From: Streptosporangium sp. NBC_01495
GTDB lineage: Bacteria > Actinomycetota > Actinomycetes > Streptosporangiales > Streptosporangiaceae
DNA: 64,000 bases
Assembly: GCF_036250735.1 (NCBI RefSeq)
Contig: NZ_CP109430.1
Location: 2,914,001-2,978,000, forward strand
Direction of reading: 5' to 3'
Shown: piece after piece, positions 34,351 through 52,114 of the stretch
Position numbering within the stretch: position 1 is the first letter of the stretch
How the letters are laid out: every line of letters starts with the position of its first letter
The notes under the pieces: model-generated
Databases searched by the model: none
Told to the model about the DNA's origin: nothing
The model's input: the letters and a program-made list of their open reading frames with translations, nothing else
Position numbers and translations under genes: made by a program

Positions 34351-34711
34351 TCATGTCCGTCGCGGCGGCGCACCGGTGACGGACCGCAGTCGGAATCGCC
34401 TTCCCGGAGCCCACCCCCCGGCATCCGGTGAACGCGAAGCCGGTCACTTCGGAGAGGGGCCGCGCCGCCCGCCGCGGCCGACCCTTGCGGCCGATTTGGC
34501 CGTTTCGTGCGGGTAGTGCGCACTTTTTGAGAGCGCGTCCGCTGACCCTCGGCCCTTATTTTCCGCGCGCTGAAGTCTCCTGCCTGTGCGAATCGCGGTT
34601 CGATGCCACGTGTTTCGTGTTTAACTCGGACTTGCGGTAGTCACCCGACTTCCTTGGGTAGTGTCCCCGGGCCAGGTGAGAGCGCGCGGTGCAGCAAGGG
34701 GGAGACGATTC
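34351..34711. other. Intergenic region upstream of orphan response regulator
   Basis: No gene seen. The second half is AT-richer than the genome average (around 34555-34670) and probably holds the promoter of the regulator at 34712. Confidence 0.4.
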
Positions 34712-36829: not shown

Positions 36830-36904
36830 GGTGGGGTGCTCCTTTGAGACTGTTGCGAAATTCAACTGAACGGGCGGGATCGCCGGGTCCGAGGGGTGCT
36901 TCTC

Positions 36905-37576
36905 TTACAGGCTGCGGGCGGTGATGTCGCCGTAGGCGGTGGTCGCGTGGATGGTCAGGGCGGCGTCGGCGCCTTCGGTGTTCTTGAGCGCGTTGTGGAT
37001 CCGGCCGTAGGTGGTGCCGGCGTCCAGGGCGGCGGAGATTCCGCGGGCGGCGCCGACGGAGATCTCGCCGGACTCGGTGCGCAGCGTGACCATGCCGCGC
37101 ACGGCCTCGGTGATGTGGAGGTCGCCCTTTTTGGTACTGATCTCCGCGGGGCCGTTCAGGCGGCCGACCGAGACGTCGCCGGACTGGAGGGTGAGGCGGG
37201 CGCCTGTGGCCTCGTCGAGCTTGATCGAGCCCTGCGCGCCTTCGAAGGCGATGTCGCCGAGCCGTCCGACGCTGCGGAGGTCGGTGAGGGCCGTCGTCGC
37301 TTCGATGTGGGAGCCGGTGGGCAGCTGGACGGTCACCTCGATGGATCCGGAAGGGCCGAGGATCTGGCTCTTCGCCTCCGGGGCCTTGATCCGCAGGACG
37401 CCGTCGCCGTATACGACCTCGGTCTGCTCCGCCGCCTTCACATCGCGGCTCTTGGAGGCGTTCGCGGGGAGGACCTCGACCACGGTGTCGGCCCGGTCGG
37501 CGGCGATGAGCTGGATGCGGCCGGCGGGGATGTCGAGGATGGCGGTCACCGGGGTGGGGGTGTCGAACTTCTGCAT
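36905..37576 (-). CDS. DUF4097 beta-strand repeat protein
   Basis: A 223-residue protein from the ATG at 37576 (GAAGGAAGACACG upstream). It consists of repeating beta strands with the DUF4097 rhythm (GRIQLIAADRADTVVEVLPA, QLPTGSHIEATTALTDLRSV, ARLTLQSGDVSVGRLNGPAE, ISTKKGDLHITEAVRGMVTL), predicted to form a beta-solenoid. No membrane anchor is present. Function of the family is unknown. First gene of an operon with the serine hydrolase and divergent from an HTH-MarR regulator. Confidence 0.88.
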   Translation of the reverse strand: MQKFDTPTPVTAILDIPAGRIQLIAADRADTVVEVLPANASKSRDVKAAEQTEVVYGDGVLRIKAPEAKSQILGPSGSIEVTVQLPTGSHIEATTALTDLRSVGRLGDIAFEGAQGSIKLDEATGARLTLQSGDVSVGRLNGPAEISTKKGDLHITEAVRGMVTLRTESGEISVGAARGISAALDAGTTYGRIHNALKNTEGADAALTIHATTAYGDITARSL

Positions 37577-37620
37577 CGTGTCTTCCTTCGGCTCGTTGTT
37601 TCTGATGACGGAAACACTAC

Positions 37621-37744
37621 GTTGCGTTTTTGTATGCGGCAACTTACTTGTTGCATGCAACCGCCATAATTGCAGGTAGAGGCCGGTAATTCGTTGCAAT
37701 GGTTTTAAAATCTAATGCAACAATCCGATTTTGTTCGTTGCAAT
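37621..37744. promoter_or_regulatory. GTTGCA operator array between DUF4097 and HTH-MarR genes
   Basis: The AT-rich intergenic region contains GTTGC/GCAAC arms at 37621-37643, a perfect 12-bp palindrome GTTGCATGCAAC at 37650-37661, GTTGCAAT at 37693-37700, ATGCAAC at 37715-37721 and GTTGCAAT at 37737-37744. Six half-sites in 124 bp, in both orientations, are what a dimeric regulator would need. The divergent MarR-like gene is the obvious candidate. Confidence 0.7.
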
Positions 37745-37798
37745 GAGTCGAGGATGAACGCTATCGTGGAGACACCACGGACCACGAAGGAGACCGCG

Positions 37799-38533
37799 AT
37801 GCCGGGAGGCAGACTCACCCAGCAGGAACGCCAGCAGATCGCGCTGGGGCTGGCCGACGGGCTCGCCTACGCGGAGATCGCCAGAGGCCTCGACCGTCCG
37901 ACCTCGACGATCACGCGTGAGGTGATGCGCAACGGCGGCGCCACCGCCTACCGCGCCGACCTCGCCCACCGCGCCACCGAACACCGCGCCCACCGCCGCA
38001 GAAAGGTCGCGCCCCGGGACCCCAACACACCCCCGCAGGCCCACGGACGCGATGCCGAAGCCGTACGCGAGTACGAGGAGACGTTCACCACCGTCTTCAT
38101 GCAGTCGGGCCTGCCCAAGATGACGGCCCGGGTGCTGGCCAACCTCTACACCACCGACGCCGGCAGTCTCACCGCCTCCGAACTCGCCGTACGCCTCCAG
38201 ATCACCCCGGCGTCCGTCTCCAAAGCGGTCGCGTTCCTCGAAAGCCAGGGCCTCATCCGCCGGGAACGCGAGGAACGCCGCCGCGAACGCTACGTCGTCG
38301 ACGACGACGTCATGTACCAATCCACGATGGCCAGCGCCCGATCTACCGCCCACCTCGGCGAGGTCGCCCGGCAGGGCGTCGGCATCCTCGGCCCCGGCAC
38401 CCCGGCCGCCGCCCGCCTGGAGAACATCGCCCGCTTCGTCGACTTCGTCTCCGAGAGCATCGCCCGCGCCGCGGACCAGGCCCGCGAGATCCTCCACACG
38501 AAACCCGAAACGACCTCGGACAGCGTTACCTGA
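37799..38533 (+). CDS. MarR-type regulator with N-terminal IS30-like helix-turn-helix
   Basis: A 244-residue protein from the ATG at 37799 after GAAGGAGACC. Residues 5-45 form a helix-turn-helix of the IS30-transposase/HTH_38 type (LTQQERQQIALGLADGLAYA, EIARGLDRPTSTITREV). About 95-190 is a MarR/GbsR winged helix (MTARVLANLYTTDAGSLTAS, ELAVRLQITPASVSKAVAFL, ESQGLIRREREERRRERYVV). The tail is helical. Two DNA-binding domains in one chain suggest recognition of clustered or composite sites, in agreement with the GTTGCA array next to it. Probably controls the divergent DUF4097-hydrolase operon and itself. Confidence 0.88.
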   Translation: MPGGRLTQQERQQIALGLADGLAYAEIARGLDRPTSTITREVMRNGGATAYRADLAHRATEHRAHRRRKVAPRDPNTPPQAHGRDAEAVREYEETFTTVFMQSGLPKMTARVLANLYTTDAGSLTASELAVRLQITPASVSKAVAFLESQGLIRREREERRRERYVVDDDVMYQSTMASARSTAHLGEVARQGVGILGPGTPAAARLENIARFVDFVSESIARAADQAREILHTKPETTSDSVT

Positions 38534-38698
38534 GCCACTTTCGGATCGCGGGCAGGCATCCTCGGCGACCACCGCCGGGACATCGGCCGACTTCGGGACA
38601 CCCCCAACCGCCGGGGACACGTCCGGGAGGAGGACACCGGCTCGGCATCATCTGGCTCCCGACGTCCCGGTCAGGCCGGATAGAGTTCGTGATCATTT

Positions 38699-39050
38699 GT
38701 GAAGATCGCGGAAGAAGGGCGGGCCGCCGTGCGGCCCCTGCCGGAGTGGCTGGCCGGGCCCCCGCTGGCGGACGACGGTACGCCGCGCTACGCGGTGCTC
38801 GGCAACGGCATGCCCGAGACCGTGGATCTGCTGACCGGACGGGTCGCCCATGAGTATCTGCCCTATCTCGGCAGGCGCGTGGCACAGGTCCAGGCGGTCG
38901 CCGCCACCCGGCAGCCGGGTGAGTGCGTCGTCAGCGTGCGACTGACGAGCGGCCAGGACGATTGGTCGCCGAGGGGATTCGTCTCGCGTCTGCACCGCCT
39001 CACGGTGCACACCGACCCGGGCGTGCGCCGGCGCGGCGCCAGGCCGCGTC
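38699..39050 (+). pseudogene. Hypothetical coding stretch without a clear 3' end
   Basis: From GTG 38699 the frame shows strong third-position GC bias and a normal protein composition for about 105 codons (VRPLPEWLAGPPLADDGTPR, GMPETVDLLTGRVAHEYLPY, ECVVSVRLTSGQDDW), then becomes Arg/Gly/Pro-rich and runs antisense into bluB. A frameshift or truncation near 39010-39050 is likely. Family not recognised. The 38534-38698 stretch shows nothing. Confidence 0.4.
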
Positions 39051-39116
39051 GCCCACCGGGAGCGGGTTCCCCCGGGCGAGGCCGGGCGGTGCGCCCGGCC
39101 TCGCCCGGGGGCGTGG

Positions 39117-39737
39117 TCACCAGCGGTCGTGGTGGACGACGTCGCGCAGGGGGCGCCGGTGACGCCAGCCGTGCCGTTCGAGGTCGGGTGTGGTTTCCAG
39201 GTGGGTCACCGGCCCGAGGCACAACCAGGCGACAGGGCGGACTCCGGCCGGGATGGCGAGGAGGTCGCCGAGGAAGGGCTCGCGGTAGAACGACACCCAG
39301 CCGACGCCGAGGTTCTCGGCGGTGGCGGCCAGCCAGAGGTTCTGGATGGCCAGGCACACCGAGTACAGGCCCGCGTCGGCGATGGCGTGGCGGCCGAGGA
39401 CGGCGGGGCCGCCCCGGTCCTGGTCGTAGGTGACCACGACCGAGAGTGTCGACTCCAGCACGCCGTCGATCTTGATTTGGGCGAATCGCCGCGCGGCGGA
39501 GGCGTCGAGGGTCGCGGCGAAGACCTCCCGCTCGTGATGGACGTGTTCGTGGAAGGCCGCCCGGAGGGCGGCGTCGCGTACCACGACGAAGTCCCAGGGC
39601 TGGGAGAGACCGACGCTGGGTGCGGCGTGGGCCGCCGACAGGACGCGGTGCAGGACCTCGTCGGGGATGGGCGCGCCGGTGAACTGCGCGCGCACGTCAC
39701 GGCGGCGGTGGATGACGTCGTAAAGCCGGTTGTCCAT
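39117..39737 (-). CDS. bluB: 5,6-dimethylbenzimidazole synthase BluB
   Basis: A 206-residue flavin-dependent nitroreductase-fold enzyme. YDVIHRRRDVRAQFTGAPIP, HAAPSVGLSQPWDFVVVRDA and LAATAENLGVGWVSFYREPF are characteristic of BluB, which fragments reduced FMN with oxygen to make dimethylbenzimidazole, the lower ligand of cobalamin. Start ATG 39737 after CGGGAGCC. The upstream leader contains a cobalamin riboswitch, which independently supports the assignment: expression should fall when B12 is plentiful. Confidence 0.92.
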   Translation of the reverse strand: MDNRLYDVIHRRRDVRAQFTGAPIPDEVLHRVLSAAHAAPSVGLSQPWDFVVVRDAALRAAFHEHVHHEREVFAATLDASAARRFAQIKIDGVLESTLSVVVTYDQDRGGPAVLGRHAIADAGLYSVCLAIQNLWLAATAENLGVGWVSFYREPFLGDLLAIPAGVRPVAWLCLGPVTHLETTPDLERHGWRHRRPLRDVVHHDRW

Positions 39738-39784
39738 GGGCAGGCTCCCGCTGTGTACATGCCCCGTGCCGGGGCTGTGGGCGC

Positions 39785-39950
39785 GAGGCCGGTCTTCGGA
39801 CTTCCGGATCGACGCCTGACCACCCGCCTTCCCAGTCCTGCCGGACCAGTGGCCGCGCGTACGCGCGTGGGTGGGGACTTCCCGGTCACCGCGGCGGGCC
39901 CGTGCCGGAATCACACCGGCTTCCCGATTCTCCCCGCCGGAGCGGGGCAC
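39785..39950 (-). promoter_or_regulatory. Cobalamin riboswitch upstream of bluB
   Basis: Read on the minus strand, the leader contains the conserved order: GGGAAGCCGGTGTGATTCCG near 39930-39910, GCCCGCCGCGGTGACC, GGCCACTGG (about 39854-39846), CTGGGAAGGCGGG (39835-39823) and the B12 box AGTCCGAAGACCGGCC (about 39803-39788). A hairpin GCCCC-GGCAC-GGGGC (39775-39761) lies between the B12 box and the bluB ribosome-binding site and could be the expression platform. Confidence 0.88.
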
Positions 39951-39980: not shown

Positions 39981-40000
39981 CCGATTCCCGCCGGAATCGG
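39981..40000 (-). terminator. Hairpin after the prolyl oligopeptidase gene
   Basis: Perfect 8-bp stem CCGATTCC / GGAATCGG with a 4-nt loop, 13 bp past the stop codon of the peptidase gene. It separates that gene from the bluB leader. Confidence 0.6.
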
Positions 40001-40013
40001 GTCACCGGGCCGT

Positions 40014-42008
40014 TCAGGTGCCGGTGTCCAGGCCGGTGTGGGCGGCGAGGAAGGCGAGCATGTCGGCGGCCAGGCCGACGGCGCGGCCCGCCGAGCGGGA
40101 GCCGTGGCCGACGTCGCCCTCGTGGCGCAGCAGGATCGGCCGTGAGCCCGACGTCGCCGCCTGCAGCGCCGCGCACATCTTGCGCGCGTGCATGGGGTCG
40201 ACGCGGGAGTCACCGCCGAAGGTGGTCAGCAGCGTCGCCGGGTAGTCGACGCCGTCGGTGACCCGGTGGTAGGGGGAGTAGCCCAGCAGCCAGCCCAGCT
40301 GCTCGGGGTCGTCGGCCGAACCGTACTCGGAACGCCACGCCGGGCCGAGCCCCGACCGCTCGTACCTGACCATGTCGAGCAGCGGCGCCGAGCAGACGGC
40401 GGCGGCGAACAGGTCGGGGCGCTGCGTCAGCGCGGCGCCCACCAGCAGCCCGCCGTTCGACTCGCCGCACGCGCCCAGCCGTGCGGGGGTGGTCCAGCCG
40501 TCCGAGACGAGCTTCTCGGCCGCCGCCGCGAAGTCGTCGAAGACGTTCTGCTTGCGGTCCAGCATGCCGTCGCGGTGCCAGTCCGCGCCCTCCTCGCCGC
40601 CGCCGCGCAGCTGGGCGAGGGCGAAGACCCCGCCCGCCTCGACCCAGGGCAGGATGTAGCTGGAGTACGACGGCGTGAGCGAGAGCCCGAACCCGCCGTA
40701 GCCGTACAGGATCGCGGGCCTGGGGCCCGAACCGGGGCGGGCCAGCACGACCATCCGCACCGGTGTGCCGTCCGCGGAGGCGCAGACCACCTGGCGGGCC
40801 TCGAGCTCGGGCACCTCCACGGCGCCGGGCGCGGCGCTCCACAGCGACGTCCGTCCGGTGCGCGTGTCGTAGTGGTGCACCCCCGCGGGCGTGACGCTGT
40901 CGGTGTAGGTGAACCACACCTCGTGGCCGCCCTCGGGGCGGGTGGTCATCCCTCCCGCCGAGCCGAGGCCGGGCAGCGGCACCGGGCCGCGCCGTCTTCC
41001 GGTCGCCAGGTCGTGGACACTGATCTCGCTGACCGCGTGCCGGGTCCAGCTCACGAGCAGCACCTGCCCGGCGATCGCGAACTCGCCGATCACCGCCTCG
41101 GGGTCCTCGCCGACCAGGTCGATCCAGTGCTCGGGGCCCGGCCGCGCCGGGTCGGCCACGCACAGCCGTCCCCGTGGCGCGTCCAGGGTGGTGACCAGGT
41201 ACAGGCGCCCGTCGCGGCCGACGGCGGGCACCGTCATCGCGCCCGCCCCCCGCTGGACCACCCGCAGGTCGGGACGCTCGGCGGAGGAGGACGACAGGTC
41301 GGCCAGCCAGAGGTCGTTGCCGTCGCCCGCCATCGCCGAGACCGTCAGCCAGCGCCCGTTGTAACTGATCCCCAGACCGTACGAGCGCTCCTCACCCATG
41401 ATCACGGCGTCGTCCTCTGCGGGGGTGCCGAGCCGGTGCAGGCGGACCTGGCGGGAGCGGACGTAGAAGAACGCCTTCCCGTCGGGCAGCCACGCCACGG
41501 GCGCGTACCGGCAGCGGTCGATCGGGCCGTCCACCACCCGGCGGGTGGCGACGTCCATGACCCGCAGTTCCGACCGCTCGTCCCCGCTCCTGGACAGCTG
41601 GTACGCCACCAGCCTGCCGTCCAGGTCGGGCTGCCAGTGGTCGAGCGTGGTCAGCCCGCTCGGGTCGAGCTCCATCGGGTCGATCAGCGTCTCCTCCACC
41701 CCGTCGGGACCGGTGCGGTAGAGGACGGCGTGCTCCTGCCGGGCCGTACGGCGCAGGAAGAACCGGCTCCCGCCGCGCCACATCGGCGTGCCGACCGTTC
41801 CGGCCCCGGTCAGCGCGGCCACCCGCGAGTGCCACCGGTGGCGGCCCGGCAGCGTGCCGGCGTGTTCGCGCCAGAGCCTCCCCTGAGCGGCCGTCCAGCT
41901 CCGCGTCTCCGGGCTGTCCGGATCCTCCAGCCACCGGTACGGGTCGGGCACCGCGTGACCGTGGAGGTGGTCGACGACGGGGTGCCGCTCGGCGGAAGGG
42001 TAGATCAT
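40014..42008 (-). CDS. Prolyl oligopeptidase (S9A), candidate lanthipeptide leader protease
   Basis: A 664-residue protein with an N-terminal beta-propeller and C-terminal alpha/beta hydrolase. The nucleophile is the Ser in GESNGG (near 516), with Asp in GDSRVDPMHARK and His in GDVGHGSRS. The N-terminus PYRWLEDPDSPETRSW is typical of prolyl oligopeptidases. Start ATG 42008 after GGAGGAATCCG; no signal peptide. It follows the ABC exporter genes of the class III lanthipeptide cluster. A prolyl oligopeptidase (FlaP) is known to remove the leader in one class III system by cutting after Pro. All three precursors here have Pro12 just after the leader motif. Confidence 0.92.
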   Translation of the reverse strand: MIYPSAERHPVVDHLHGHAVPDPYRWLEDPDSPETRSWTAAQGRLWREHAGTLPGRHRWHSRVAALTGAGTVGTPMWRGGSRFFLRRTARQEHAVLYRTGPDGVEETLIDPMELDPSGLTTLDHWQPDLDGRLVAYQLSRSGDERSELRVMDVATRRVVDGPIDRCRYAPVAWLPDGKAFFYVRSRQVRLHRLGTPAEDDAVIMGEERSYGLGISYNGRWLTVSAMAGDGNDLWLADLSSSSAERPDLRVVQRGAGAMTVPAVGRDGRLYLVTTLDAPRGRLCVADPARPGPEHWIDLVGEDPEAVIGEFAIAGQVLLVSWTRHAVSEISVHDLATGRRRGPVPLPGLGSAGGMTTRPEGGHEVWFTYTDSVTPAGVHHYDTRTGRTSLWSAAPGAVEVPELEARQVVCASADGTPVRMVVLARPGSGPRPAILYGYGGFGLSLTPSYSSYILPWVEAGGVFALAQLRGGGEEGADWHRDGMLDRKQNVFDDFAAAAEKLVSDGWTTPARLGACGESNGGLLVGAALTQRPDLFAAAVCSAPLLDMVRYERSGLGPAWRSEYGSADDPEQLGWLLGYSPYHRVTDGVDYPATLLTTFGGDSRVDPMHARKMCAALQAATSGSRPILLRHEGDVGHGSRSAGRAVGLAADMLAFLAAHTGLDTGT

Positions 42009-42099
42009 CGGATTCCTCCGGTGTGGAGACCTCGGGCCTCGGCCCTGGGCGGGAAGCACGGCGAGGAGGGCGGGGGACACGGCGAGAAGGGCGGGGGAT

Positions 42100-43833
42100 T
42101 CACCGCACCAGCTCCTGGGTGCTCGACGGGTCCCACTGCCCGGCCAGGTCCGCGTACAGCGGGGAGGCGGCGAGCATCTCCTCGTGCGTGCCCAGCCGGA
42201 CGCTGGTGCCGTCCATGACGAGGATCCGCCGGGCCCGCAGGGCGGAGGTCAGCCGGTGGGCGATGACGAGGAGCGTGCCGCCCCGGCGGGCGAACGCCTC
42301 CTCGGCGCGGGCCTCGGCCGCCGGGTCCAGGTGGCACGTCGCCTCGTCGAGGATGACCAGCCGGGCCGGGGCGAGGTAGGCGCGGGCCAGGGCGACCAGC
42401 TGCCGTTCTGCGGGTGACAGCAGCCCCGAGTGGATCTCGGTGGAGTAGCCGCCCAGCCGCGCCACCAGGTTCGTCAGGCCGACCGCGGCCACGGCGTCGT
42501 CCACCGCCTCCCGAGGGACGTCGGCCAGATAGGTCAGGTTCTCCAGCAGGGAGCCGCGGAAGACGTACGCCTCCTGCGGGATCAGCACCCGGTCGGCGGG
42601 GTCGAGGCGGTCGGCGGGCACCCCGCGCACCAGGACCTGGCCCGCCCCCGGCGGGAGCAGACCGGTCAGGAGCGCGGCGAGCGTGGACTTGCCGATGCCG
42701 CTGGGGCCCACGACGGCGATGTGGTCCCCTTCGGGGACCACCAGGTCCAGGTCGTCGATCACCGGTTCCGCGTGCGGGCCGTACGCGAACGTCACGCCGC
42801 GCAGCTCGGCCCCTTCGCTCCCGTCACGCGCCGTGAGACGCCCGCGCGCCCGCACGGGCGGGTCGCCGTCGCGCAGGAGCTGGCCCAGCGCCACCCGCAG
42901 CCGGACCCCGTTGATGCCCAGCCCCTCCACGAGGTTGCCGAGCGCGGGCGTCAGCGACTGCGTGACGTAGGCCAGGGCACCCAGGATCACCCCGGCGCCC
43001 GCGCCCTCACCCACCAGCCAGGGGGTCCCGGCCAGTACCAGCAGGACCGGCAGCCAGCCGCCCACCGCCAGCGACAGGGTGCGCAGCGCGGTCACCCGCG
43101 CCAGCGACCGGGCCGCGCGGGCCTGCTCCGTCACCCGCAGGCCGACGTCGCCCGCCACCCGCTCCTCGGCCCGGCAGGCGGTGATGTCGCGCAGCCCGCC
43201 CACCATGGTGGCCAGCGACCCGGCGGTGCGCTCGTCGGCCAGGATGAAGTCCCGCTGCCGCCTGGCCAGGGCGCGCAGCGACAGCAGGAAGATGACAAGG
43301 CCCGCGACGAAGGGGGGCAGCACCAGCGCGAGCACCTCGGGCACGAGGGTCGCCAGCCCGAGGACGACGCTCACCACGGTGAACGCGAACGACCTGACCA
43401 CCGTGATGACCGAGGCGAAGGCGTCGCGGGCCAGCTCGACCTGGAGGTTGGAGCGGGCCACCGCCGCCGTCCCCGGTCCCCGCCCGGCCACGGCCGAGTG
43501 GCGCAGCGCGTCGTCGACGACGTGCGCGAGCAGCTCCTCGCGGAACGGCTCCACGATCGAGGCGACGGCCATCACCACCTGCCGCGCGCCGACCGCGGCC
43601 AGCAGCCACGCGCCGCCGAGCAGGGCCAGCCAGGCGAACCCGGTCGCGGGGCGCCCCGCGCCGAAGCCGTCGTCGATCGCCCGCGCGATGGCCAGGCCGA
43701 TGACCAGCGAGGGCGCCGTCTCCGCGATGGACCAGCCCGCGAGCCTGACCAGCTGGTACGGGTCCCTCCTGAGCGCTCGCCGGAGGGGCCTGCCGGCGAC
43801 GTGCCCGTCCGGGGGGTTCACGACAGGGTTCAC
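42100..43833 (-). CDS. ABC exporter half-transporter 2 (lanthipeptide cluster)
   Basis: 577 residues: six-helix exporter domain (about 1-310) and ATPase domain with Walker A GPSGIGKST, Walker B LVILDEATCHLD (consensus catalytic Glu) and His in VIAHRL. The signature motif is degenerate: LLSPAERQLVALARA instead of LSGGQ. It starts at a GTG in a GTGA overlap with the first transporter gene. Combined with that gene's features (intact signature, Asp instead of catalytic Glu) this is the pattern of a heterodimeric exporter with one degenerate ATP site. Probably exports the modified lanthipeptides. Confidence 0.9.
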   Translation of the reverse strand: MNPVVNPPDGHVAGRPLRRALRRDPYQLVRLAGWSIAETAPSLVIGLAIARAIDDGFGAGRPATGFAWLALLGGAWLLAAVGARQVVMAVASIVEPFREELLAHVVDDALRHSAVAGRGPGTAAVARSNLQVELARDAFASVITVVRSFAFTVVSVVLGLATLVPEVLALVLPPFVAGLVIFLLSLRALARRQRDFILADERTAGSLATMVGGLRDITACRAEERVAGDVGLRVTEQARAARSLARVTALRTLSLAVGGWLPVLLVLAGTPWLVGEGAGAGVILGALAYVTQSLTPALGNLVEGLGINGVRLRVALGQLLRDGDPPVRARGRLTARDGSEGAELRGVTFAYGPHAEPVIDDLDLVVPEGDHIAVVGPSGIGKSTLAALLTGLLPPGAGQVLVRGVPADRLDPADRVLIPQEAYVFRGSLLENLTYLADVPREAVDDAVAAVGLTNLVARLGGYSTEIHSGLLSPAERQLVALARAYLAPARLVILDEATCHLDPAAEARAEEAFARRGGTLLVIAHRLTSALRARRILVMDGTSVRLGTHEEMLAASPLYADLAGQWDPSSTQELVR

Positions 43834-46031
43834 GACGCGCCCGCCTGGAACGACGTGCCCGTCCGTGAAGGGGCATCCGTCCGTGAAGGGGCGTCCGTCG
43901 GGGAAGAGGCGCCTGCCCGTGAAGAGGTGTCCGTCGGGGAAGAGGCGCCTGCCCGTGAAGAGGTGTCCGTCGGGAAAGGCGCGTCGGCCCGGGGCGACGT
44001 ATCCGCTTGGAAGACGGCGCGGTAGGCCAGGTCGGCCCAGAGCGCGCGATGACCGCCGCACGCGCGCACCCGGCCATCGTCCAGCCAGATCACCCGGTCG
44101 GCCGCCGCCGCGGTCGCCACCCGGTGGGTCACGATCAGACGCGTACGGTCGTGCAGCTCCCTGGAGAGCGCGCGGGCCACCTGGCGCTCGGTGACGGTGT
44201 CCAGGCTGGAGGTGGCGTCGTCCAGGATGAGCAGGCGCCACCCCTGCGCGAAGGCGCGGGCCAGTCCGAGCCGCTGCCGCTCACCGCCGGACATGGGCGC
44301 CTCCTCCAGCGGCGTGTCGTACCCCAGCGGAAGCCGCCGGACGAAGGCGTCGGCGCGGGCCGCCCGCGCCGCCGCCCTCACGACCTCGCGGTTCCCGTCC
44401 GCCGGGCCTTCCCGGCCGTCGCCCTCGTGGTGACCGGACCCGAACTCCGACCGGGAGCCGGACCGGGACCGAGACCCGGACTCGGACCCGGACCCGGAGC
44501 GGGACCCGAACTCCGGGCCGGACCCGGACCCGGACTCGGACCGGGACTCGGCGGACCCGGAGCCGGGCTCGGACCGGGACTCGGCGGACCCGGAGCCGGG
44601 CTCGGACCGGGACTCGGCGGACCCGGAGCCGGGCTCGGACCGGGACTCGGCGGACCCGGAGCCGGGCTCGGGCCGGGCCTCCGTGCCGGTACGGGGGTCG
44701 CGACGGCCGTGGCCGGAGGTGCTGTGGCGACCGGTGACGGCGGTGACGGCGGGAGTGTCCAGACCCAGGGCGACGGTGTCGCCGACGGTGTCGCCGAGCA
44801 GCGCCGGGCGCTCGAAGGCGTACCCGACGGCGTGGCGCAGTGCCTCGCGGGAGAGCTCGGGCAGCGGGACGCCGTCGAGGAGGACCGTGCCGTGGCGCGG
44901 GTCCACCAGCCGTCCGGCGACGGCGGCGAGCAGGGACTTGCCCGCGCCCGAGCGGCCGACTACGGCCACCGCCTGCCCCCCGGGGATGACGAGATCGACG
45001 TCGCGCAGGCCGTCCGCGTCGACGCCGCGAAGCTCAAGCGTGCCGGGACCGGCGGGCAGCGGGCGCGTACCGTAGGCCCGCGGGTTCTCGGCGACCAGTT
45101 CCTGCACCCTGACCGCGGCGGCCCGCGCCCTGGCCAGGCGGCCGACGTAGCCCAGCGCCGAGCCGAGACCGGCGCCGAGCACGACGTAGCGGGCGGCGGC
45201 GTACAGCTCTCCGGCGCTGAGGTCCCCGGCGGCCAGGCGCAGCCCGCCCACCCCGAGCACGGCCACCTCCAGCAGCGGGACCACCGCTCCCGCCTGCACG
45301 CCGGCCCGCGCGTTGGCCCGCCACATGTCCATGGCGTGCCCGCGCAGCCGGGGCAGGGCGGTCAGCACCCGCGCCCGCTCCCGGTCGGCGGTGCCGGCCG
45401 CGGCGATCGTGCGGGCCCCGGCGAGGGCGTCGACCAGGCGGGCGGCGATGTCGCTCTGCGCCGCCTGGTAGTCACCCGCTATCGAGGTGCTCACGGTGAG
45501 GAAGGCCCGCAGGACGAGGGCGATGAGGACGAGCCCGGCGACCAGCGTCACGGTCAGCAGCGGGTCGATGAGGGTGAGGGCCACGACGCCGCCCGCGGTG
45601 GGGATGACCAGCGCGGCCCCGGTGACGATCGACTCGGGGGCGCGCCCGATCTCCTCGGTGTTCAGGCCCATCCGGGTGACCAGGTCTCCCTCGGGGAACC
45701 GGCGGGTGATCATCGGCCCGACGCCGAGCACGTTTCCCACGACTCGGTTCCTGAGCCAGGCCGAGGAGCGCGCGCCACTCGATCCCGAGGCCCAGACGCC
45801 GAGGGTGTCGCAGACCACGGTCAGGATCACCGCGGCGGCGCAGGCGCCGAGCCAGGTCGCCGCGCCGGTGCCGCCGGGCGTACCGGCCATGAGCTCGTCG
45901 ACCGTCCTGCCCAGCAGGAGGGGGAGCGCGAGCTGCGCGAACGCGCCCAGGACGGAGGTGACCGCGAGGACGGCCAGCCAGGGTCCGCTACGCCGTACGG
46001 TGTCGGCCACCAGCCGGTCCGCTGCCCGCAC
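43830..46031 (-). CDS. ABC exporter half-transporter 1 with repeat insert in the ATPase domain
   Basis: 733 residues, longer than the usual 570-600. Transmembrane domain about 1-310. The ATPase domain has Walker A GRSGAGKSL near 357, signature MSGGERQRLGLARA near 577 and Walker B LLILDDATSSLD, with Asp where the catalytic Glu is expected. Between the Q-loop region (YAFERPALLGDTVGDTV) and the signature is a low-complexity block of about 100 residues containing four EPGSGSAESRS units. The C-terminal tail carries further 12-residue repeats (SSPTDTSSRAGA), encoded by a 36-bp repeat. Pairs with the next gene as a heterodimer. Confidence 0.9.
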   Translation of the reverse strand: MRAADRLVADTVRRSGPWLAVLAVTSVLGAFAQLALPLLLGRTVDELMAGTPGGTGAATWLGACAAAVILTVVCDTLGVWASGSSGARSSAWLRNRVVGNVLGVGPMITRRFPEGDLVTRMGLNTEEIGRAPESIVTGAALVIPTAGGVVALTLIDPLLTVTLVAGLVLIALVLRAFLTVSTSIAGDYQAAQSDIAARLVDALAGARTIAAAGTADRERARVLTALPRLRGHAMDMWRANARAGVQAGAVVPLLEVAVLGVGGLRLAAGDLSAGELYAAARYVVLGAGLGSALGYVGRLARARAAAVRVQELVAENPRAYGTRPLPAGPGTLELRGVDADGLRDVDLVIPGGQAVAVVGRSGAGKSLLAAVAGRLVDPRHGTVLLDGVPLPELSREALRHAVGYAFERPALLGDTVGDTVALGLDTPAVTAVTGRHSTSGHGRRDPRTGTEARPEPGSGSAESRSEPGSGSAESRSEPGSGSAESRSEPGSGSAESRSESGSGSGPEFGSRSGSGSESGSRSRSGSRSEFGSGHHEGDGREGPADGNREVVRAAARAARADAFVRRLPLGYDTPLEEAPMSGGERQRLGLARAFAQGWRLLILDDATSSLDTVTERQVARALSRELHDRTRLIVTHRVATAAAADRVIWLDDGRVRACGGHRALWADLAYRAVFQADTSPRADAPFPTDTSSRAGASSPTDTSSRAGASSPTDAPSRTDAPSRTGTSFQAGAS
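44543..44674 (-). repeat. 33-bp tandem repeat, 4 copies, inside ABC transporter ATPase domain
   Basis: Units start at 44543, 44576, 44609 and 44642, almost identical to each other (GGACTCGGCGGACCCGGAGC then CGGGCTCGGACCG). The period of 33 keeps the frame and gives 11-residue EPGSGSAESRS units. Related but more degenerate GACCCGGA/GACTCGGA sequence continues to about 44450. Confidence 0.9.
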
Positions 46032-46144
46032 GTCGGCCCCCTCCTGACTTCCCGAGCTTCCCCGGCTTCACGGACGTGCCCGGCTTCCCGGACGTCCTCG
46101 ACCTCACGGACTTCCCTGATCTCCCGGACTCTCCCGGAACGGGA

Positions 46145-46183
46145 GTGCCCGGGACGGCCGCCGTCGCTGGCCGTCCCGGGCAC
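46145..46183 (-). terminator. 15-bp-stem hairpin between lanthipeptide precursors and exporter genes
   Basis: Perfect stem GTGCCCGGGACGGCC / GGCCGTCCCGGGCAC with a 9-nt loop, 10 bp past the stop of the last precursor gene. As a partial terminator it would leave much more precursor than exporter mRNA, and it could also protect the 3' end of the short transcript. Confidence 0.75.
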
Positions 46184-46192
46184 GGGGTCTCA

Positions 46193-46327
46193 CTAGTGGC
46201 AGAGCACGACGCTCAGGTTGCTGGGCCTGCCGGACTGGCAGCCCAGGACCGTGAGGGTGCTGCCGCCGCCACCGCCGTGGCCGCCGCCGTCGGGGGTCTC
46301 CAGGGACTGCAGGTCGAGAAGAACCAT
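46193..46327 (-). CDS. Class III lanthipeptide precursor 3 (44 aa)
   Basis: ATG 46327 with GGAG upstream. Leader MVLLDLQSLETP contains the LLDLQSLE helix recognised by class III synthetases; a Gly/His-rich linker (DGGGHGGGGG) follows. The core region has two labionin-type motifs: S23-x-x-T26-x3-C30 and S36-x-x-S39-x3-C43, separated by Q-S-G-R-P. It differs from its two siblings in Arg34 (Lys in the others), Asp13 and one fewer Gly. LanKC should dehydrate the Ser/Thr residues and form lanthionine or labionin rings. Confidence 0.88.
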   Translation of the reverse strand: MVLLDLQSLETPDGGGHGGGGGSTLTVLGCQSGRPSNLSVVLCH

Positions 46328-46385
46328 GGGAGTTGCTCCGTTTCTACGGGGTTCTACGGGTTCTGGATTCTGTGGAACGGGAGGA

Positions 46386-46523
46386 CTAGTGGCAGAGCAG
46401 GAGGCTCAGGTTGCTGGGCTTGCCGGACTGGCAGCCCAGGACCGTGAGGGTGCTGCCGCCACCGCCGCCGCCACCGTGGCCGCCGCCGGGGGTCTCCAGG
46501 GACTGCAGGTCGAGAAGGACCAT
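46386..46523 (-). CDS. Class III lanthipeptide precursor 2 (45 aa)
   Basis: ATG 46523 with GAGG upstream. Same design as its neighbours: MVLLDLQSLETP leader, Gly/His linker, and core motifs S24-x-x-T27-x3-C31 and S37-x-x-S40-x3-C44. Its second ring segment reads SNLSLLLCH where the other two have SNLSVVLCH, so the mature product should be slightly more hydrophobic. Spacing to the adjacent precursor genes is 52 and 58 bp, without a strong hairpin between them. Confidence 0.88.
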   Translation of the reverse strand: MVLLDLQSLETPGGGHGGGGGGGSTLTVLGCQSGKPSNLSLLLCH

Positions 46524-46575
46524 GGGATTGCCTCACTTCTGATGGGAACCGAACCGATATGGAGAAATCGAGTGC

Positions 46576-46713
46576 CTAGTGGCAGAGGACGACGCTCAGG
46601 TTGCTGGGCTTGCCGGACTGGCAGCCGAGGACCGTGAGGGTGCTACCGCCGCCACCGCCGCCGCCGTGGCCGCCGGTGGGGGCCTCCAGGGACTGCAGGT
46701 CGAGAAGAACCAT
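46576..46713 (-). CDS. Class III lanthipeptide precursor 1 (45 aa)
   Basis: First of the three precursors in transcription order; it starts 4 bp after the LanKC stop codon, with a perfect Shine-Dalgarno (AGGAGGTG) that overlaps the end of the synthetase gene. Leader MVLLDLQSLEAP (Ala11 instead of Thr), linker TGGHGGGGGGG, core S24-x-x-T27-x3-C31 and S37-x-x-S40-x3-C44. The strong ribosome-binding site predicts high output of this peptide. Confidence 0.9.
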   Translation of the reverse strand: MVLLDLQSLEAPTGGHGGGGGGGSTLTVLGCQSGKPSNLSVVLCH

Positions 46714-46717
46714 GTCG

Positions 46718-49363
46718 TTACACCTCCTTCCGCTGTGTGTCGTGGGGGCCAAACCGCCCGGCGGATCCGTGCGCGGACACCCCTGACGGGGCGCTCGTGC
46801 CGACGGGCGGTTCGATGAAGGGGAGGAACACCGGCCGGTCGTGCAGCACGGCGCTCATCGCGAACAGGACTCCGGCCGTACCGGTCGCGAAGTCCATCGA
46901 GAGCCTGAGCAGCTGGTTGCCGGGGAAGGCCAGCCCGCCGCCGTGGGGCAGCGCGTGCCAGTCCAGCCCGCGGAGTTGCTCGGCCAGGTCTGTGTGGTCG
47001 GTACGGGGGGCGTCCGGCCCGGTGCCCAGGCCCCAGCCGAGGGCGCCGATCATGCCGCTCCGGCCGGTGAACAGGCCGGACTGCACGAAGTAGCGTCCCC
47101 GGATGACACGCCGGCAGCCGTCGAGCGCGGTGCGGAAGTCCTCGTCCTCCCGGTGGGCCAGGTAGCGGGCGAGGACCATGCCGATGCCCACCGACCCCTC
47201 GTCCAGGTAGGGCAGCGTGCGCCAGCCCTGGTCGACCTGGAGGGTTCCGTCCTCGCCGGTGACGCAGCGCCGCAGATCCTGCCGGAGCGCCACGGCCGCC
47301 CTGTCGAGCAGCGACGCGTCGCCGGTGCGCTCGTAGGCGTGCAGGAGGAGAAGGGCGGGCCCGGAGGAGCCGTACATCAGTCCGGCCCGGGGGTGGCTGC
47401 CGCCGCTGACCTCCGGCACGTCATCGGGCCCGCCCAGCCTGTCGGAGCAGATGTCGGTGATCTGCAGGGCCACCTCGGTGAAGGCCCGCTCGCCGGTGGT
47501 TCCGCCCAGGTGGAGAAGATTCAGGCCCATGCCGGCCAGGCCGCTGAACAGCCCGAGCTCCAGCGACTCCCACTTCTGGCGCAGGCACAGGTCGGCGGTG
47601 TCGATCGCGTCCTGGCGGTGCCCGAGCAGGTCGAGGACGTAGGCCACGCCGTGCAGGCCGTCGTAGAACCCGATCCCCGTCCCCGGGTCGGGGGCGAGCG
47701 CCTTCGCGCGCAGCCAGTCCTCGTACTCGGGACGGCGCTCGGCCCCGGTCCTCGCCAGCGCGTAGAGCACGCCCGCCGCGCCGTACGCGAGGTTGACGCC
47801 CCCGCCGGGCTGGAACTGGGCGACGTCGCCGGGGAAGAGCCGGTCCTCGCGCTCGGGGGTGGCGCTCGCCAGGATGGCCCGGGTCATCGCCTCCCTGAGC
47901 CGGGGCCAGCTGTCGCGTCCCGGCCTCGGGTAGGGCGTGGCCGCCGCGGGCTCCGCGCCCGTGACGGTCCGGACCGCCTCGTCGAGCACCTCGCGCGGTA
48001 CGGGGAAGGTCTCGCCGATGAGCCTGGCCAGCTCGGCCACCTTGGTGCGGTCGAGCGGCAGCATGATCGTGAGCTGGGGGGCGAAGAGTCCGAGGCAGAG
48101 GCAGGCGAGGGCGTACAGGTCGACGTCGACGCCCTGCCTGTCGGCCGGCGCGCCGAACGCCGGGTGGGCGAGCGCCGCGCGGCCGCGGTCCTCGGTGAGG
48201 GTCGCCACCTCGTAGTCGATCAGGGTCAGGCGGCCGTCCGCGGTCACGAGGATGTTGTTCGGGTGCAGGTCGCCGAAGACCACCCCGCGCTCGTGCAGGG
48301 ACTCGATCGCCCGCCGCACCTTGGGGAGCATGTCGAGCACCCAGGCGGTGTACTCGGTGAGGGCCTCGTCGTCGCAGGTCGCCCTGGTCAGCGGGTATTT
48401 GTGGACGAGCTGCCGCTGGAGCGGGTTGCCGTCGACGAACTCCTCGACCAGGAAGTGGTGCCCGCCCAGGGTGAAGTAGTCGATCAGCGCGGGAACCGCG
48501 TCCAGCCCGGACAGACGCTCCAGCATGTCGCGCTCGTGCGCCAGCCGCGCCACCGCGTCCCGGCCGGCGGCGTCCAGGCCGGCGTGCGGGCGGGCCTCCT
48601 TCAGCACGACCCGCTCCCCGGTGCGCAGGTCCTCTCCGAGGTAGACGCCGCCGCCGTTGGAGAACTGCATGACGCTCTCGACCCGGTACGGCAGTCCCTC
48701 GGTGGTGACCGCGTTGCGGGCGGCCACGTGGGATTCGAGGAAGGCGGGCAGCGTCACCCAGGACGGCACGCCGAAGGCGGGTTCTCGCACGTCGGGGACG
48801 AGCCGTCCGTCGCCGTCCTCGATGGCCAGCACCAGCTCGCCGTTGTCGGCCAGGCAGCGCCGCCCGGCGAAGCCGCCGTACCGCACGAAGAGCGGGCCCT
48901 GGCCGTAGCGGAGGTCGCTGAGGATGTACGGCCCCTCGACGCCCCTGAGCAGCTCGTCGAGCTCCTTGAGCGTGAGCTCCAGCTGCGCCTCGTCCACCGG
49001 GTAGATCGTCACGAGCTTCCCGCTGGCGCCACGGGGGGCGGCCTTGGAGTTCAGCATGGTCATGACCGGCAGGCTGCGCAGGAACTTGAACGCGATGTCG
49101 CGGGGGACGCAGTAGTCCCAGACCGCCTCTATGGCGCGGTCGGCGTCCTCTGCGCGGGCAGAGACATGGATCTTCCAGCCCTGGGCGGGTGTGCGACCGG
49201 CGAGCGGCGCGTAGTGCATCCAGGTGTCGGTCGCCTGGTGCTGCCAGTCGTCTGGGACATCTCGGGCAGCGAGCGCGAAATCGGGGTGATCACCTCGGCG
49301 ACCGTCAAGCGTGTCATAAAAAAGCGGGTCCGCCAGGCAATAAAGCTCATACTGGTCATCCAC
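46718..49363 (-). CDS. lanKC: Class III lanthionine synthetase LanKC (RamC-like)
   Basis: 881 residues from the GTG at 49363 (GGGGAGAATGCC upstream). About 1-230 is the N-terminal lyase-like part starting YELYCLADPLFYDTL. About 270-520 is a kinase domain (VVLKEA, GVVFGDLHPNNILV, LIDYEVATL), which phosphorylates Ser/Thr of the precursor before elimination. About 540-860 is a LanC-like cyclase (GFYDGLHGVAYVLDLLG, GLFSGLAGMG, LFTGRSGMIGALG) without the zinc-binding Cys/His set, as expected for class III rather than class IV. Three precursor genes follow directly. A SapB-like morphogenetic surfactant is one possible product type. Confidence 0.95.
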   Translation of the reverse strand: MDDQYELYCLADPLFYDTLDGRRGDHPDFALAARDVPDDWQHQATDTWMHYAPLAGRTPAQGWKIHVSARAEDADRAIEAVWDYCVPRDIAFKFLRSLPVMTMLNSKAAPRGASGKLVTIYPVDEAQLELTLKELDELLRGVEGPYILSDLRYGQGPLFVRYGGFAGRRCLADNGELVLAIEDGDGRLVPDVREPAFGVPSWVTLPAFLESHVAARNAVTTEGLPYRVESVMQFSNGGGVYLGEDLRTGERVVLKEARPHAGLDAAGRDAVARLAHERDMLERLSGLDAVPALIDYFTLGGHHFLVEEFVDGNPLQRQLVHKYPLTRATCDDEALTEYTAWVLDMLPKVRRAIESLHERGVVFGDLHPNNILVTADGRLTLIDYEVATLTEDRGRAALAHPAFGAPADRQGVDVDLYALACLCLGLFAPQLTIMLPLDRTKVAELARLIGETFPVPREVLDEAVRTVTGAEPAAATPYPRPGRDSWPRLREAMTRAILASATPEREDRLFPGDVAQFQPGGGVNLAYGAAGVLYALARTGAERRPEYEDWLRAKALAPDPGTGIGFYDGLHGVAYVLDLLGHRQDAIDTADLCLRQKWESLELGLFSGLAGMGLNLLHLGGTTGERAFTEVALQITDICSDRLGGPDDVPEVSGGSHPRAGLMYGSSGPALLLLHAYERTGDASLLDRAAVALRQDLRRCVTGEDGTLQVDQGWRTLPYLDEGSVGIGMVLARYLAHREDEDFRTALDGCRRVIRGRYFVQSGLFTGRSGMIGALGWGLGTGPDAPRTDHTDLAEQLRGLDWHALPHGGGLAFPGNQLLRLSMDFATGTAGVLFAMSAVLHDRPVFLPFIEPPVGTSAPSGVSAHGSAGRFGPHDTQRKEV

Positions 49364-49511
49364 GGCATTCTCCCCTGCTGTCTTCCAGAAGAGAGAATTA
49401 CGGATAACCCGAGAAACCACTAGTTACAAACTCAACCACTCGTATATGCGAAACTCACAGTGCCGACCGTGAAGGTGTGCGCTACCTGCGCTTTCGCGGT
49501 AAACGTGAAGA

Positions 49512-50213
49512 TCATTCGGGAAAATTAGCAGGAACCTCGGCTATCAGGGTGAACCACCCGTCCGCGCCGCCGGCCACCCGAACCGTGCCGCCCAGCTCAC
49601 CCATGCGGTGGCCCAGGTTGTCCACGCCGCTGCCGGTGGAGGGCGCCTCCTGTCGGGGAGCCCCGTCGTTGACGACGGTCAGGCGCAGCCGGCCGCCGTG
49701 CTCGACCAGCTCGATCGCGCACCGCCTCACCTGGCTGTGCCGCAGCATGTTCGTCACGCCCTCGCGGACCACGGCGCCCAGCGCGGCGCTCACGACCTCG
49801 GGAAGCTCGTCCACGTCCACCCGGACCGAGCAGTAGGCCCCGAAGCCCTCCAGCAGGGTCCTGGCCCGCGCGGCCTCGCCGGAGAACGACAGCCGGTGGG
49901 CGGCCTTCGACACGTCCCGCACGGCGTGCGCGGCCTGCCGCACCGCCTGCAGCACCTCTTCCAGGTCCTCGCGCAGGCGCGCGTCGCCCTTCGCCTTCCG
50001 GTGGGCGAGCTCTCCCTTGATGGACGCCAGCCAGAGCCAGTGCCCCACGATGTCGTGCATGTCGCGGGCGAACCCCTCGTACGCTCTGCTGAGCGCCCTC
50101 TCCCGCTCGGCGCGGAGCCGCCTGATCCGCAGGACGAGGGCGAGCGTCACGCCCAGCGAGGCCAGCAGGATGCCCGTTCCGGCCGCTCCGACGAGGTAAG
50201 CGGGGTGGGGCAT
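49512..50213 (-). CDS. Small sensor histidine kinase at the head of the lanthipeptide cluster
   Basis: 233 residues: one transmembrane helix (GTGILLASLGVTLALVL), a HisKA_3 motif with His53 (FARDMHDIVGHWLWLASIKG) and a compact HATPase domain (VVREGVTNMLRHS, GSGVDNLGHRMGELGG). It has almost no extracytoplasmic domain, so it may sense the membrane or an internal signal. It lies 148 bp upstream of lanKC on the same strand. No response-regulator gene is adjacent. ram-type clusters normally have a regulator (RamR) instead. Confidence 0.88.
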   Translation of the reverse strand: MPHPAYLVGAAGTGILLASLGVTLALVLRIRRLRAERERALSRAYEGFARDMHDIVGHWLWLASIKGELAHRKAKGDARLREDLEEVLQAVRQAAHAVRDVSKAAHRLSFSGEAARARTLLEGFGAYCSVRVDVDELPEVVSAALGAVVREGVTNMLRHSQVRRCAIELVEHGGRLRLTVVNDGAPRQEAPSTGSGVDNLGHRMGELGGTVRVAGGADGWFTLIAEVPANFPE

Positions 50214-50670: not shown

Positions 50671-51384
50671 TCAGATGAGCCTGAGCGCCGAGGGAAGCAG
50701 CAGGTAGGCCCCGGCCACCAGGCACGCGCCCGCCACCACCAGGAACAGGAACACCCAGAACCCGCCGGGCAGGAAGGTCAGCCTGGCGAGCTGGTCGGCG
50801 TCGGAGTCGGGCGCCTGGTGGCGGCGCCGCTTACGCTGGAGCTCCACGATCGGCCGTACGCCTCCCAGCAGCAGGAACCACACGGCCAGATAGGCCAGGA
50901 CCGCGTCCATGTCGGGCGCCGCGTACCAGGTGAAGGCGAAGATCGCGCCCCCGGTGACCAGCAGGCTCACCACGCCGAACAGGTTGCGGATCAGCAGCAG
51001 CATGCAGAACAGCAGCCCGATCACCATCGTGATCAGCACCGCCACGTAGCCGGAGGCGGTCAGCCACGCCCCGCCCAGCCCCAGCAGGGATGGGGCGACG
51101 TAGCCGGCGGCGGCGGTCAGGATCATGCCGAATCCCCGGGGCTTGCCCCTGGTCAGGGTCACGCCCGAGGTGTCGGAGTGCAGCCGGATGCCCTCCAGCT
51201 TGCGCCGGGTGAGCAACGCCACCAACGCGTGCCCGCCCTCGTGGGCGATGGTGATCAGCCCCCGCGACAGCTGCCACGAGGTGGACCACGACACCACGCC
51301 CAGCGCGGCCAGGGCGGACAGCAGCACGACCCACAGGGGCGGCCCGGAACGGGTCGTGGTCAGGGTCACCCAGAGGTCGGACAA
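50671..51384 (-). CDS. M50-family membrane metallopeptidase (site-2-protease-like)
   Basis: 237 residues from a TTG at 51384 preceded by AAGGAGA at about 9 nt. The zinc motif is H48-E-G-G-H52 in TIAHEGGHALVALL, inside a membrane helix, with about five further helices (FGMILTAAAGYVAPSLLGLG, YVAVLITMVIGLLFCMLLL, WVFLFLVVAGACLVAGAYLL). It matches actinobacterial M50 family proteins of similar length. The substrate is unknown. A GTG six codons downstream of the TTG is an alternative start. Transcribed alone. Confidence 0.85.
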   Translation of the reverse strand: MSDLWVTLTTTRSGPPLWVVLLSALAALGVVSWSTSWQLSRGLITIAHEGGHALVALLTRRKLEGIRLHSDTSGVTLTRGKPRGFGMILTAAAGYVAPSLLGLGGAWLTASGYVAVLITMVIGLLFCMLLLIRNLFGVVSLLVTGGAIFAFTWYAAPDMDAVLAYLAVWFLLLGGVRPIVELQRKRRRHQAPDSDADQLARLTFLPGGFWVFLFLVVAGACLVAGAYLLLPSALRLI

Positions 51385-51637
51385 CGCTCGTTTCTCCTTC
51401 GCGGCGTGGGAGCAAAGCGTCCCACGACTTCCGGTGTGCTGGCGATAAAGTCGGAACCGTGCCGAGCGTGATTCCCGAACATCCCCCACCCGTACGCCCG
51501 CCGGCTTCACGTGCTCGACCGGCTCGGGCTCGGCGACGACCGGCTCCGTGCGGTGTGCTGGAACAACGTGGACAATCTCCTCGACCTTTCCGCGCACTAC
51601 ACTCGGTCGGCAGGACATTGATGACCGGGAGAAACTC

Positions 51638-52114
51638 GTGAACGATCGGAACGCCGAGCTCATCAAGACGTTCTACGAGGCCTTCGCGCGCCGCGACGCC
51701 GACGCGATGGAACTCTGCTACCACCCCGACGCCACCTTCGGTGACCCCGTCTTCCAGGACCTCGAAGGACGCGACAGGGTCATGGGCATGTGGCGGATGC
51801 TGCTGGGCCGCAGCGCCGACCTCGACGTGACCGTCCGCGACATCACCGCCCGCCCGCACGAGGGCACGGCGCACTGGACCGGTCGTTACACCTTCGGCAA
51901 GACAGGCAGGAAGGTCGTCAACGAGGTCGACGCCCTCTTTCGCTTCGAGGACGGCCTGATCGTCCGCCACCACGACGACTTCGACCTCAGGCGCTGGTCC
52001 AAGATGGCGATGGGCCGGCCGGTCGGTATCGTCCTCGGCTGGACCCCGATGCTCAGGGCGAAGATCCGTACCACCGCGATGCGGTCGCTGCAGGAGTTCA
52101 TGAGCGCCCGATGA
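51638..52114 (+). CDS. NTF2/SnoaL-like protein
   Basis: 158 residues from GTG 51638 after GGGAGAAACTC. The cone-shaped NTF2 fold is indicated by ELIKTFYEAFARRDADAMEL, HPDATFGDPVFQDLEGRDRV, TAHWTGRYTFGKTGRKVVNE and FEDGLIVRHHDDFDLRRWSK. Members act as isomerases, cyclases or ligand binders; no active site assignment is possible. Ends 10 bp before the CorA gene, so both are probably one operon. Confidence 0.85.
   Translation: MNDRNAELIKTFYEAFARRDADAMELCYHPDATFGDPVFQDLEGRDRVMGMWRMLLGRSADLDVTVRDITARPHEGTAHWTGRYTFGKTGRKVVNEVDALFRFEDGLIVRHHDDFDLRRWSKMAMGRPVGIVLGWTPMLRAKIRTTAMRSLQEFMSAR

Follow-up and report, generated by a model that had tools for sequence, protein, structure and literature searches.

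The window analysed here is a stretch of 64,000 nucleotides from Streptosporangium sp. NBC_01495 (contig NZ_CP109430.1, positions 2,914,001 to 2,978,000), and contains a minus-strand gene set (40014-50213) encoding a histidine kinase, a class III lanthionine synthetase (LanKC), three tandem precursor peptides (A1 to A3), two ATP-binding cassette (ABC) half-exporters and a prolyl oligopeptidase (POP). All genes that an earlier note on this DNA had named are present, each on the minus strand, while a response regulator gene on the plus strand (34625-35368), which lies outside the region considered there, had been missed. LanKC (881 residues, 46718-49363, with a GTG start picked by homology) comprises RamC_N, Pkinase and LANC_like domains and has solved relatives (8sap, 8sam and 9ugq); it matches the class III model NF038151 with 1100.8 bits (cut-off 575) and the class IV model with 418.4 bits, under the cut-off of 650. 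A1 (45 residues, 46576-46713; MVLLDLQSLEAPTGGHGGGGGGGSTLTVLGCQSGKPSNLSVVLCH) adjoins lanKC and is followed by A2 (45 residues, 46386-46523; MVLLDLQSLETPGGGHGGGGGGGSTLTVLGCQSGKPSNLSLLLCH) and A3 (44 residues, 46193-46327; MVLLDLQSLETPDGGGHGGGGGSTLTVLGCQSGRPSNLSVVLCH), which match the NCBIfam model NF033212 ("SapB/AmfS family lanthipeptide," cut-off 25) with 61.5, 60.4 and 59.8 bits, respectively. Since an NF033212 search of the whole host genome of 11.1 Mb (E ≤ 0.001) returned A1, A2 and A3 alone, and 0 of 14 control genomes gave a match, a chance match is excluded. Each precursor contains two S/T-x2-S/T-x3-C ring motifs joined by a constant linker of five residues (QSGKP or QSGRP), and Pro12 is separated from the first core Ser by 11 residues in A1 (TGGHGGGGGGG), 11 in A2 (GGGHGGGGGGG) and 10 in A3 (DGGGHGGGGG). 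Only this Gly/His spacer varies in length, so that the 8-10 residues and the variable linker described earlier are to be corrected.

In genome contigs that were scanned, 68 named loci were identified (L numbers below; genomes carry G numbers), and among 297 genomes of the family a LanKC match (E ≤ 1e-60) was found in 188; 10 loci duplicated between two collections were dropped. The core type of the window, S-x-L-T-x3-C-x-S-x2-P-S-x2-S-x3-C-H, was harvested in 77 precursors from 42 loci with a strict pattern that itself required the conserved core residues, so that their invariance is built into this set. A permissive pattern gave 105 precursors, 28 of which lack the strict core; both harvests rely on an LLDLQ-like box. 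In the permissive harvest, all 28 precursors of loci with a POP keep the window core type and Pro12, the dehydratable residues S1, T4, S10, S14 and S17, and a C-terminal His22, which is more constant than the spacer His. LanKC and precursors are both present in 16 of 16 Streptosporangium genomes searched, so that no relative in the genus was found to keep lanKC without precursors, and the precursor genes of G196 and G223 are identical to those of S. amethystogenes (L001) and S. carneum (L002). In a midpoint-rooted LanKC tree of 64 rows, with SH-aLRT support computed by a quick method and long branches flagged elsewhere in the tree, a group of 24 rows (SH-aLRT 99) comprises the window, all 19 loci with a POP, L010, L012, L016 and L015 (L060, L061, L063 and L068 were left out for length, L067 as too distant). 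Loci next to this group have another core type, with the linker CTPHENSS and the ending CG or CGNH, and a POP was not found there.

The domain and family matches, the solved relatives and the tree support the class III, SapB-like assignment well, and the cluster is a further case of a known kind, the SapB/AmfS-family class III cluster. As far as its sequence tells, it is sound and ordinary, with a dedicated POP and an overlooked putative two-component pair. We consider it likely that its product is a ring peptide that is cut by the POP, keeps a tail and is exported, and that the precursor copies serve mainly dosage. Published background on class III lanthipeptides was drawn from parts of PMC10885120, PMC8960859, PMC7268733, PMC13380574 and PMC10206099; a 2026 paper among these counts over 4,000 sequences under annotation of the NF033212 type, and states that the synthetase sequence is a poor guide to whether lanthionine or labionin is formed.

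Protease, two-component genes and exporter

The POP (664 residues, 40014-42008), the proposed leader protease, is a member of the S9A family (PF02897, 227.7 bits; PF00326, 156.2 bits) with the expected fold and catalytic motifs. In the alignment with its best solved relative, prolyl endopeptidase 2bkl (444 bits), GESNGG, D-S-R and GHG coincide with catalytic motifs, and the Trp of GPAW and the GYGGF stretch, which we take to line the Pro pocket, are aligned as well. The N-terminus (MIYPSAER), read by eye, has no signal-peptide-like stretch. Twenty-three named loci have the window core type, three of which (L010, L012, L016) end too early; a POP is present in 19 of the 20 with enough flank, the remaining one (L015) having none within its 8 kb flanks, and was found in 0 of the 45 other named loci, some of which are truncated. 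In L014 and L024 the gene order differs, with the POP between precursors and transporters, so that rearrangement has not parted it from the set. An orthologue of the cluster POP (76-90% identical) is present in each of the 15 further genus genomes; in G071 and G180 its contig is not the one that carries lanKC. A second POP (60-62% identical) is encoded elsewhere in each of the 16 genomes. In G208 (C1:515356-517413) the cluster POP matches in two frames, so that either the gene is disrupted or the sequence contains an error.

The histidine kinase (HisKA_3, 233 residues, 49512-50213; PF07730, 36 bits) has a short N-terminus in which a sensor domain was not found, and its orthologue precedes lanKC in 14 of 16 genus genomes, that of the window included. 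The response regulator combines Response_reg and GerE domains and is a candidate counterpart of RamR and AmfR; among the 25 matches listed, no NCBIfam model reached its cut-off. Its orthologues, 75-87% identical, occur in 13 of the 15 other genus genomes, with three alignments spanning one stop codon. The regulator gene is located within 260 bp of the POP gene in 10 of the 16 genomes; otherwise the distance is 3.8 kb (G180), 4.7 kb (window), about 39 kb (G208) or 45 kb (G196). In the window, the intervening block (35702-39950) holds beta-lactamase-family, DUF4097, helix-turn-helix and nitroreductase genes. Kinase and regulator are both present in 14 of the 16 genomes and both missing from the same two (G158 and G005), which encode weaker relatives only. 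Because the regulator is linked to the POP in 10 of 16 genomes and is missing together with the kinase from the same two, it can be assigned to the set, and we propose that it belongs to the ancestral cluster as the putative partner of the kinase. Ahead of lanKC, a non-coding block (49364-49429, minus strand; TTGTAACTAG...GGTTATCCG) is highly conserved across Streptosporangium and partly in Planomonospora and Planobispora. Within it, TTGTAACT (49422-49429) does not vary among the 22 aligned rows, which represent 19 distinct loci (L083 and L085 among them). This block likely represents a control region with the ribosome-binding site.

As expected of a ram or amf locus, two ABC half-exporters follow the precursors. 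ABC1 (43830-46031; PF00664 and PF00005) takes a RamA/AmfA-like position, and the chosen GTG start of ABC2 (42100-43833; PF00005) overlaps the ABC1 stop. The membrane domain of ABC2 gave no Pfam match at E ≤ 0.001, and residues 37-564 match MsbA_rel below its cut-off. The Walker B motif and the signature read ILDDATS and MSGGERQ in ABC1, and ILDEATC and an unusual LSPAERQ in ABC2; by the established logic of ABC exporters, such a pair would be consistent with a heterodimer in which one of the ATP sites is degenerate. A search of the host genome for ABC domains gave nothing specific. The segment of ABC1 from the Q-loop to the signature comprises approximately 185 residues, compared with 65-92 in the 16 relatives listed. 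The insertion (about 44420-44690) is a low-complexity Ser/Gly/Glu/Arg tandem repeat that has expanded within the nucleotide-binding domain, and at its C-terminus ABC1 also bears a repeated tail. On the other side of the cluster, a gene for an M50B-type membrane metalloprotease (50671-51666) adjoins the kinase gene and has matches at L001-L005 and L023 (62-91%).

Leader removal and the Gly-rich spacer

In the proposed pathway, LanKC would bind the helix of the LLDLQ leader, phosphorylate Ser and Thr residues and eliminate the phosphate, and close one labionin or lanthionine per S/T-x2-S/T-x3-C motif (core residues S1-T4-C8 and S14-S17-C21). The dedicated POP, presumably cytoplasmic, would then cut after Pro12, and the ABC pair would export a product whose N-terminus bears a Gly-rich tail, 10-11 residues long if it is not trimmed by aminopeptidases. 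The flanking sensor kinase and the LuxR-type regulator probably switch the set on, most likely in aerial growth as for SapB and AmfS, and the three copies would give a near-identical ring peptide, mainly for dosage, differing chiefly in the tail. Cleavage after Pro12 leaving the Gly tail is the best inference, because a POP lies in the cluster and Pro12 occurs in every precursor of the loci with a POP, against 14 of 33 precursors from loci scored POP-negative (for five of the 14, the contig stops short of the POP position); the tail suggested earlier is thus plausible, with its retention inferred from the presence of a canonical protease. A precedent is provided by FlaP, which according to a review cuts the class III peptide FlaA efficiently after Pro(-12) only if FlaA is modified; the review describes the removal of residues -11 to -1 as initially unclear, and cites later studies as suggesting that endo- and aminopeptidase metalloproteases finish the trimming. 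With four water molecules lost, tailed products of A1, A2 and A3 would have neutral monoisotopic masses of 2921.4, 2905.4 and 2906.4 Da, forms shortened to a Gly-Gly-His start 2820.4, 2848.4 and 2734.3 Da, and core-only products 2170.1, 2198.1 and 2198.1 Da.

Several observations weigh against the favoured POP-cut, tailed peptide. Pro12 also occurs at loci where an adjacent POP was not found (L015, L019, L029, L043 and L044). The leaders of SapB and AmfS have a Pro at the same position, and Pro12 could be just a feature of the leader as such. The POP loci fall into one group, which brings the association close to a single evolutionary event; on the LanKC tree the POP label is counted to change four times, three of these changes being forced, if the three loci that end too early are scored as lacking it. 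Core position 13 holds a second invariant Pro at which the POP could also cut; we assume that ring closure shields it. The products of three M1 peptidase genes in the host genome could trim the tail. Regarding regulation, G158 and G005, with nearly the same precursor genes (L083 and L085), probably reflect one event of kinase and regulator loss, and at both loci the block ahead of lanKC is still conserved. For the locus of the window, neither expression nor product data were found.

The most serious alternative, which we regard as distinctly less likely than the tailed product but still a real contender, is that the spacer acts only as a flexible leader spacer, which other proteases remove so that the mature peptide starts at or near core Ser1. 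In the strict harvest the Pro12-to-core spacer comprises 8-15 residues, mostly Gly (coded mostly by GGC and GGT in the spacers), and drifts in length and composition next to a conserved core, which GG directly precedes in all 77 precursors. Most Actinomadura loci and the Nonomuraea loci replace the Gly/His tract (e.g. TASGGASGG or SSSDVASGG), and all loci of the window core type in these two genera except L020 have Ser/Ala-bearing spacers without His. The trimming metalloproteases suggested after FlaP and the three M1 genes would supply the proteases, although shortening of a Gly tract by M1 enzymes is only putative and neither ABC protein contains a C39 peptidase domain detectable with Pfam. 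Cleavage at the double glycine by an exporter C39 domain was rejected for the latter reason. Many LanKC loci have a Gly/His spacer as well, including some at which a POP was not found (L019, L043 and L046), so that the spacer is not unusual, contrary to what had been assumed. Catenulipeptin from Catenulispora acidiphila likewise has a Gly/His-rich stretch before its core.

History of the precursor copies

Tandem precursors are not rare in class III clusters, because in a published survey 57% of precursors were the sole precursor of their cluster, and one cluster had 13. The cores of A1, A2 and A3 have K, K and R at position 12 and VV, LL and VV at positions 18-19, a variation that would suit a combinatorial set of peptides with different activities. 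Yet in the 15 multi-copy loci of the genus the copy-1 core protein equals that of a later copy in nine cases (with 0-8 nucleotide differences), and cores are closer within a genome than between genomes: the amino acid distance of copy-1 cores is 0.051 to later copies of the same genome and 0.152 to other copy-1 cores. Copy-1 leaders, by contrast, are at 0.059 from the copy-1 leaders of other genomes and at 0.122 from their own later copies. When later copies were reassigned among the copy-1 genes of these loci in 5000 shuffles, the observed core distance (0.045 vs. 0.143 shuffled, amino acids) was never matched (0/5000), while for the leader the values were 0.107 vs. 0.123 (476/5000 as low) for amino acids and 0.120 vs. 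0.142 (5/5000 as low) for nucleotides, so that the leader DNA also keeps a weaker own-genome signal. At the nucleotide level, the copy-1 core finds its nearest match in a later copy of the same genome at 8 of the 15 loci and in the copy 1 of another genome at 7; for the copy-1 leader, a later copy of the same genome is nearest at one locus and the copy 1 of another genome at 12, with two ties.

The cores are thus, by these distances, homogenised within each genome, with leaders that track copy position, and the three copies read as dosage; a combinatorial set is accordingly given little probability, and a diversity library of cores is not supported by their likeness within genomes. Because the genes for shared core proteins differ by 0-8 nucleotides, their likeness may be due to gene conversion as well as to selection that favours a single core. 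A literature search covering titles and the starts of abstracts, with few subscription journals, found neither gene conversion in class III precursors nor a description of this Streptosporangium cluster.

Spacer histidine, metal binding and relation to known systems

A His is present in 48 of the 77 strict-harvest spacers, in at least one copy at 23 of 42 loci, and is missing from the other 29 precursors and from every harvested copy at 19 loci. His-free spacers at loci that keep the POP include those of Planobispora (L004), Planomonospora parontospora (L003), most Actinomadura and Nonomuraea L022. These data fit a length-variable linker better than a conserved metal site. The earlier proposal of a metal-binding tail is therefore not supported as a function of the family, and metal binding by the spacer has weak support, a role restricted to Streptosporangium being possible. 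In its most specific form, a retained tail would be cut by the POP and trimmed to Gly-Gly-His, an N-terminal copper/nickel motif. All 48 His-bearing spacers contain GGH, with the His 3-6 residues after Pro12 while its distance from the core varies from 4 to 13, and Pro directly precedes GGH at the genus loci L072 and L075 and also at L016; in the multi-copy genus loci, His occurs in 9 of 15 first copies and in 26 of 26 later ones. Noursin from Streptomyces noursei is a reported copper-binding class III lanthipeptide. However, GGH is expected anyway for a His within a Gly tract, the His is exactly third after Pro12 in only 6 of 48 spacers, and copper binding by noursin is reported to need a His crosslink, so that, with the His absent from so many loci, we hold such a tail to be very unlikely. 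Still more speculative, and improbable on present evidence, is the idea that in the POP subfamily Ser10 and His22, left over after two labionins, form a His-dehydroalanine crosslink, or a copper site together with a trimmed Gly-Gly-His tail.

The closest known systems are SapB (ramCSAB/ramR) and AmfS (amfTSAB/amfR) of Streptomyces, surfactants that promote aerial hyphae, whose loci share with the window LanKC, a short precursor with an LLDLQ leader and two S-x2-S-x3-C motifs, two ABC half-exporters, a response regulator (in the window a candidate, 4.7 kb away) and the match to NF033212. Relative to SapB and AmfS, the window adds the dedicated POP, the Gly-rich spacer and the adjacent histidine kinase, and differs in having tandem precursors (2-4 in the genus), a linker of five residues and a C-terminal Cys-His. 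Flavipeptin (FlaA/FlaP) of Kribbella flavida is also a class III system with a POP in the cluster, a likeness drawn from its description, and FlaP-like proteases have been reported beside precursors in Streptomyces, Amycolatopsis and Jiangella. In the class III family III 3 of Streptococcus pneumoniae a POP (LanPB) is encoded with the precursor as in the window, but this system, again likened by description, comes from Firmicutes and has an additional CAAX-family protease; the survey that reports it states that actinobacterial class III clusters are usually without a protease. Durhapeptin (Streptomyces durhamensis) shares the LLDLQ leader, two tandem SXXSXXXC motifs and a neighbouring response regulator, but has one precursor, and a figure legend points to a cleavage site for the protease domain of an ABC transporter instead of a POP. 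Noursin shares the class, an S9 peptidase in the cluster and a His-bearing peptide, and differs in its single labionin with a histidinobutyrine crosslink, in its LELQEL leader motif and in its synthetase, which falls into a separate similarity cluster. The Thr-x-His in the C-T-P-H-E-N-S-S linker of L019, L043 and L059, which have the adjacent core type without the C-terminal Cys-His, loosely resembles the neighbourhood of the noursin crosslink.

With the cluster of the window, a family of developmental peptides known from Streptomyces would extend to rarer actinomycetes with a linked protease. If true, a crosslink or copper site of Ser10 and His22 would add a new type of ring architecture to the SapB/AmfS family. 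The split history of the precursors, with leaders following copy position and cores following the genome, would provide an example of copies that are kept alike and not diversified. The linked protease, the fixed Pro12 and the predicted masses make leader removal in class III lanthipeptides, which is poorly understood, directly testable.

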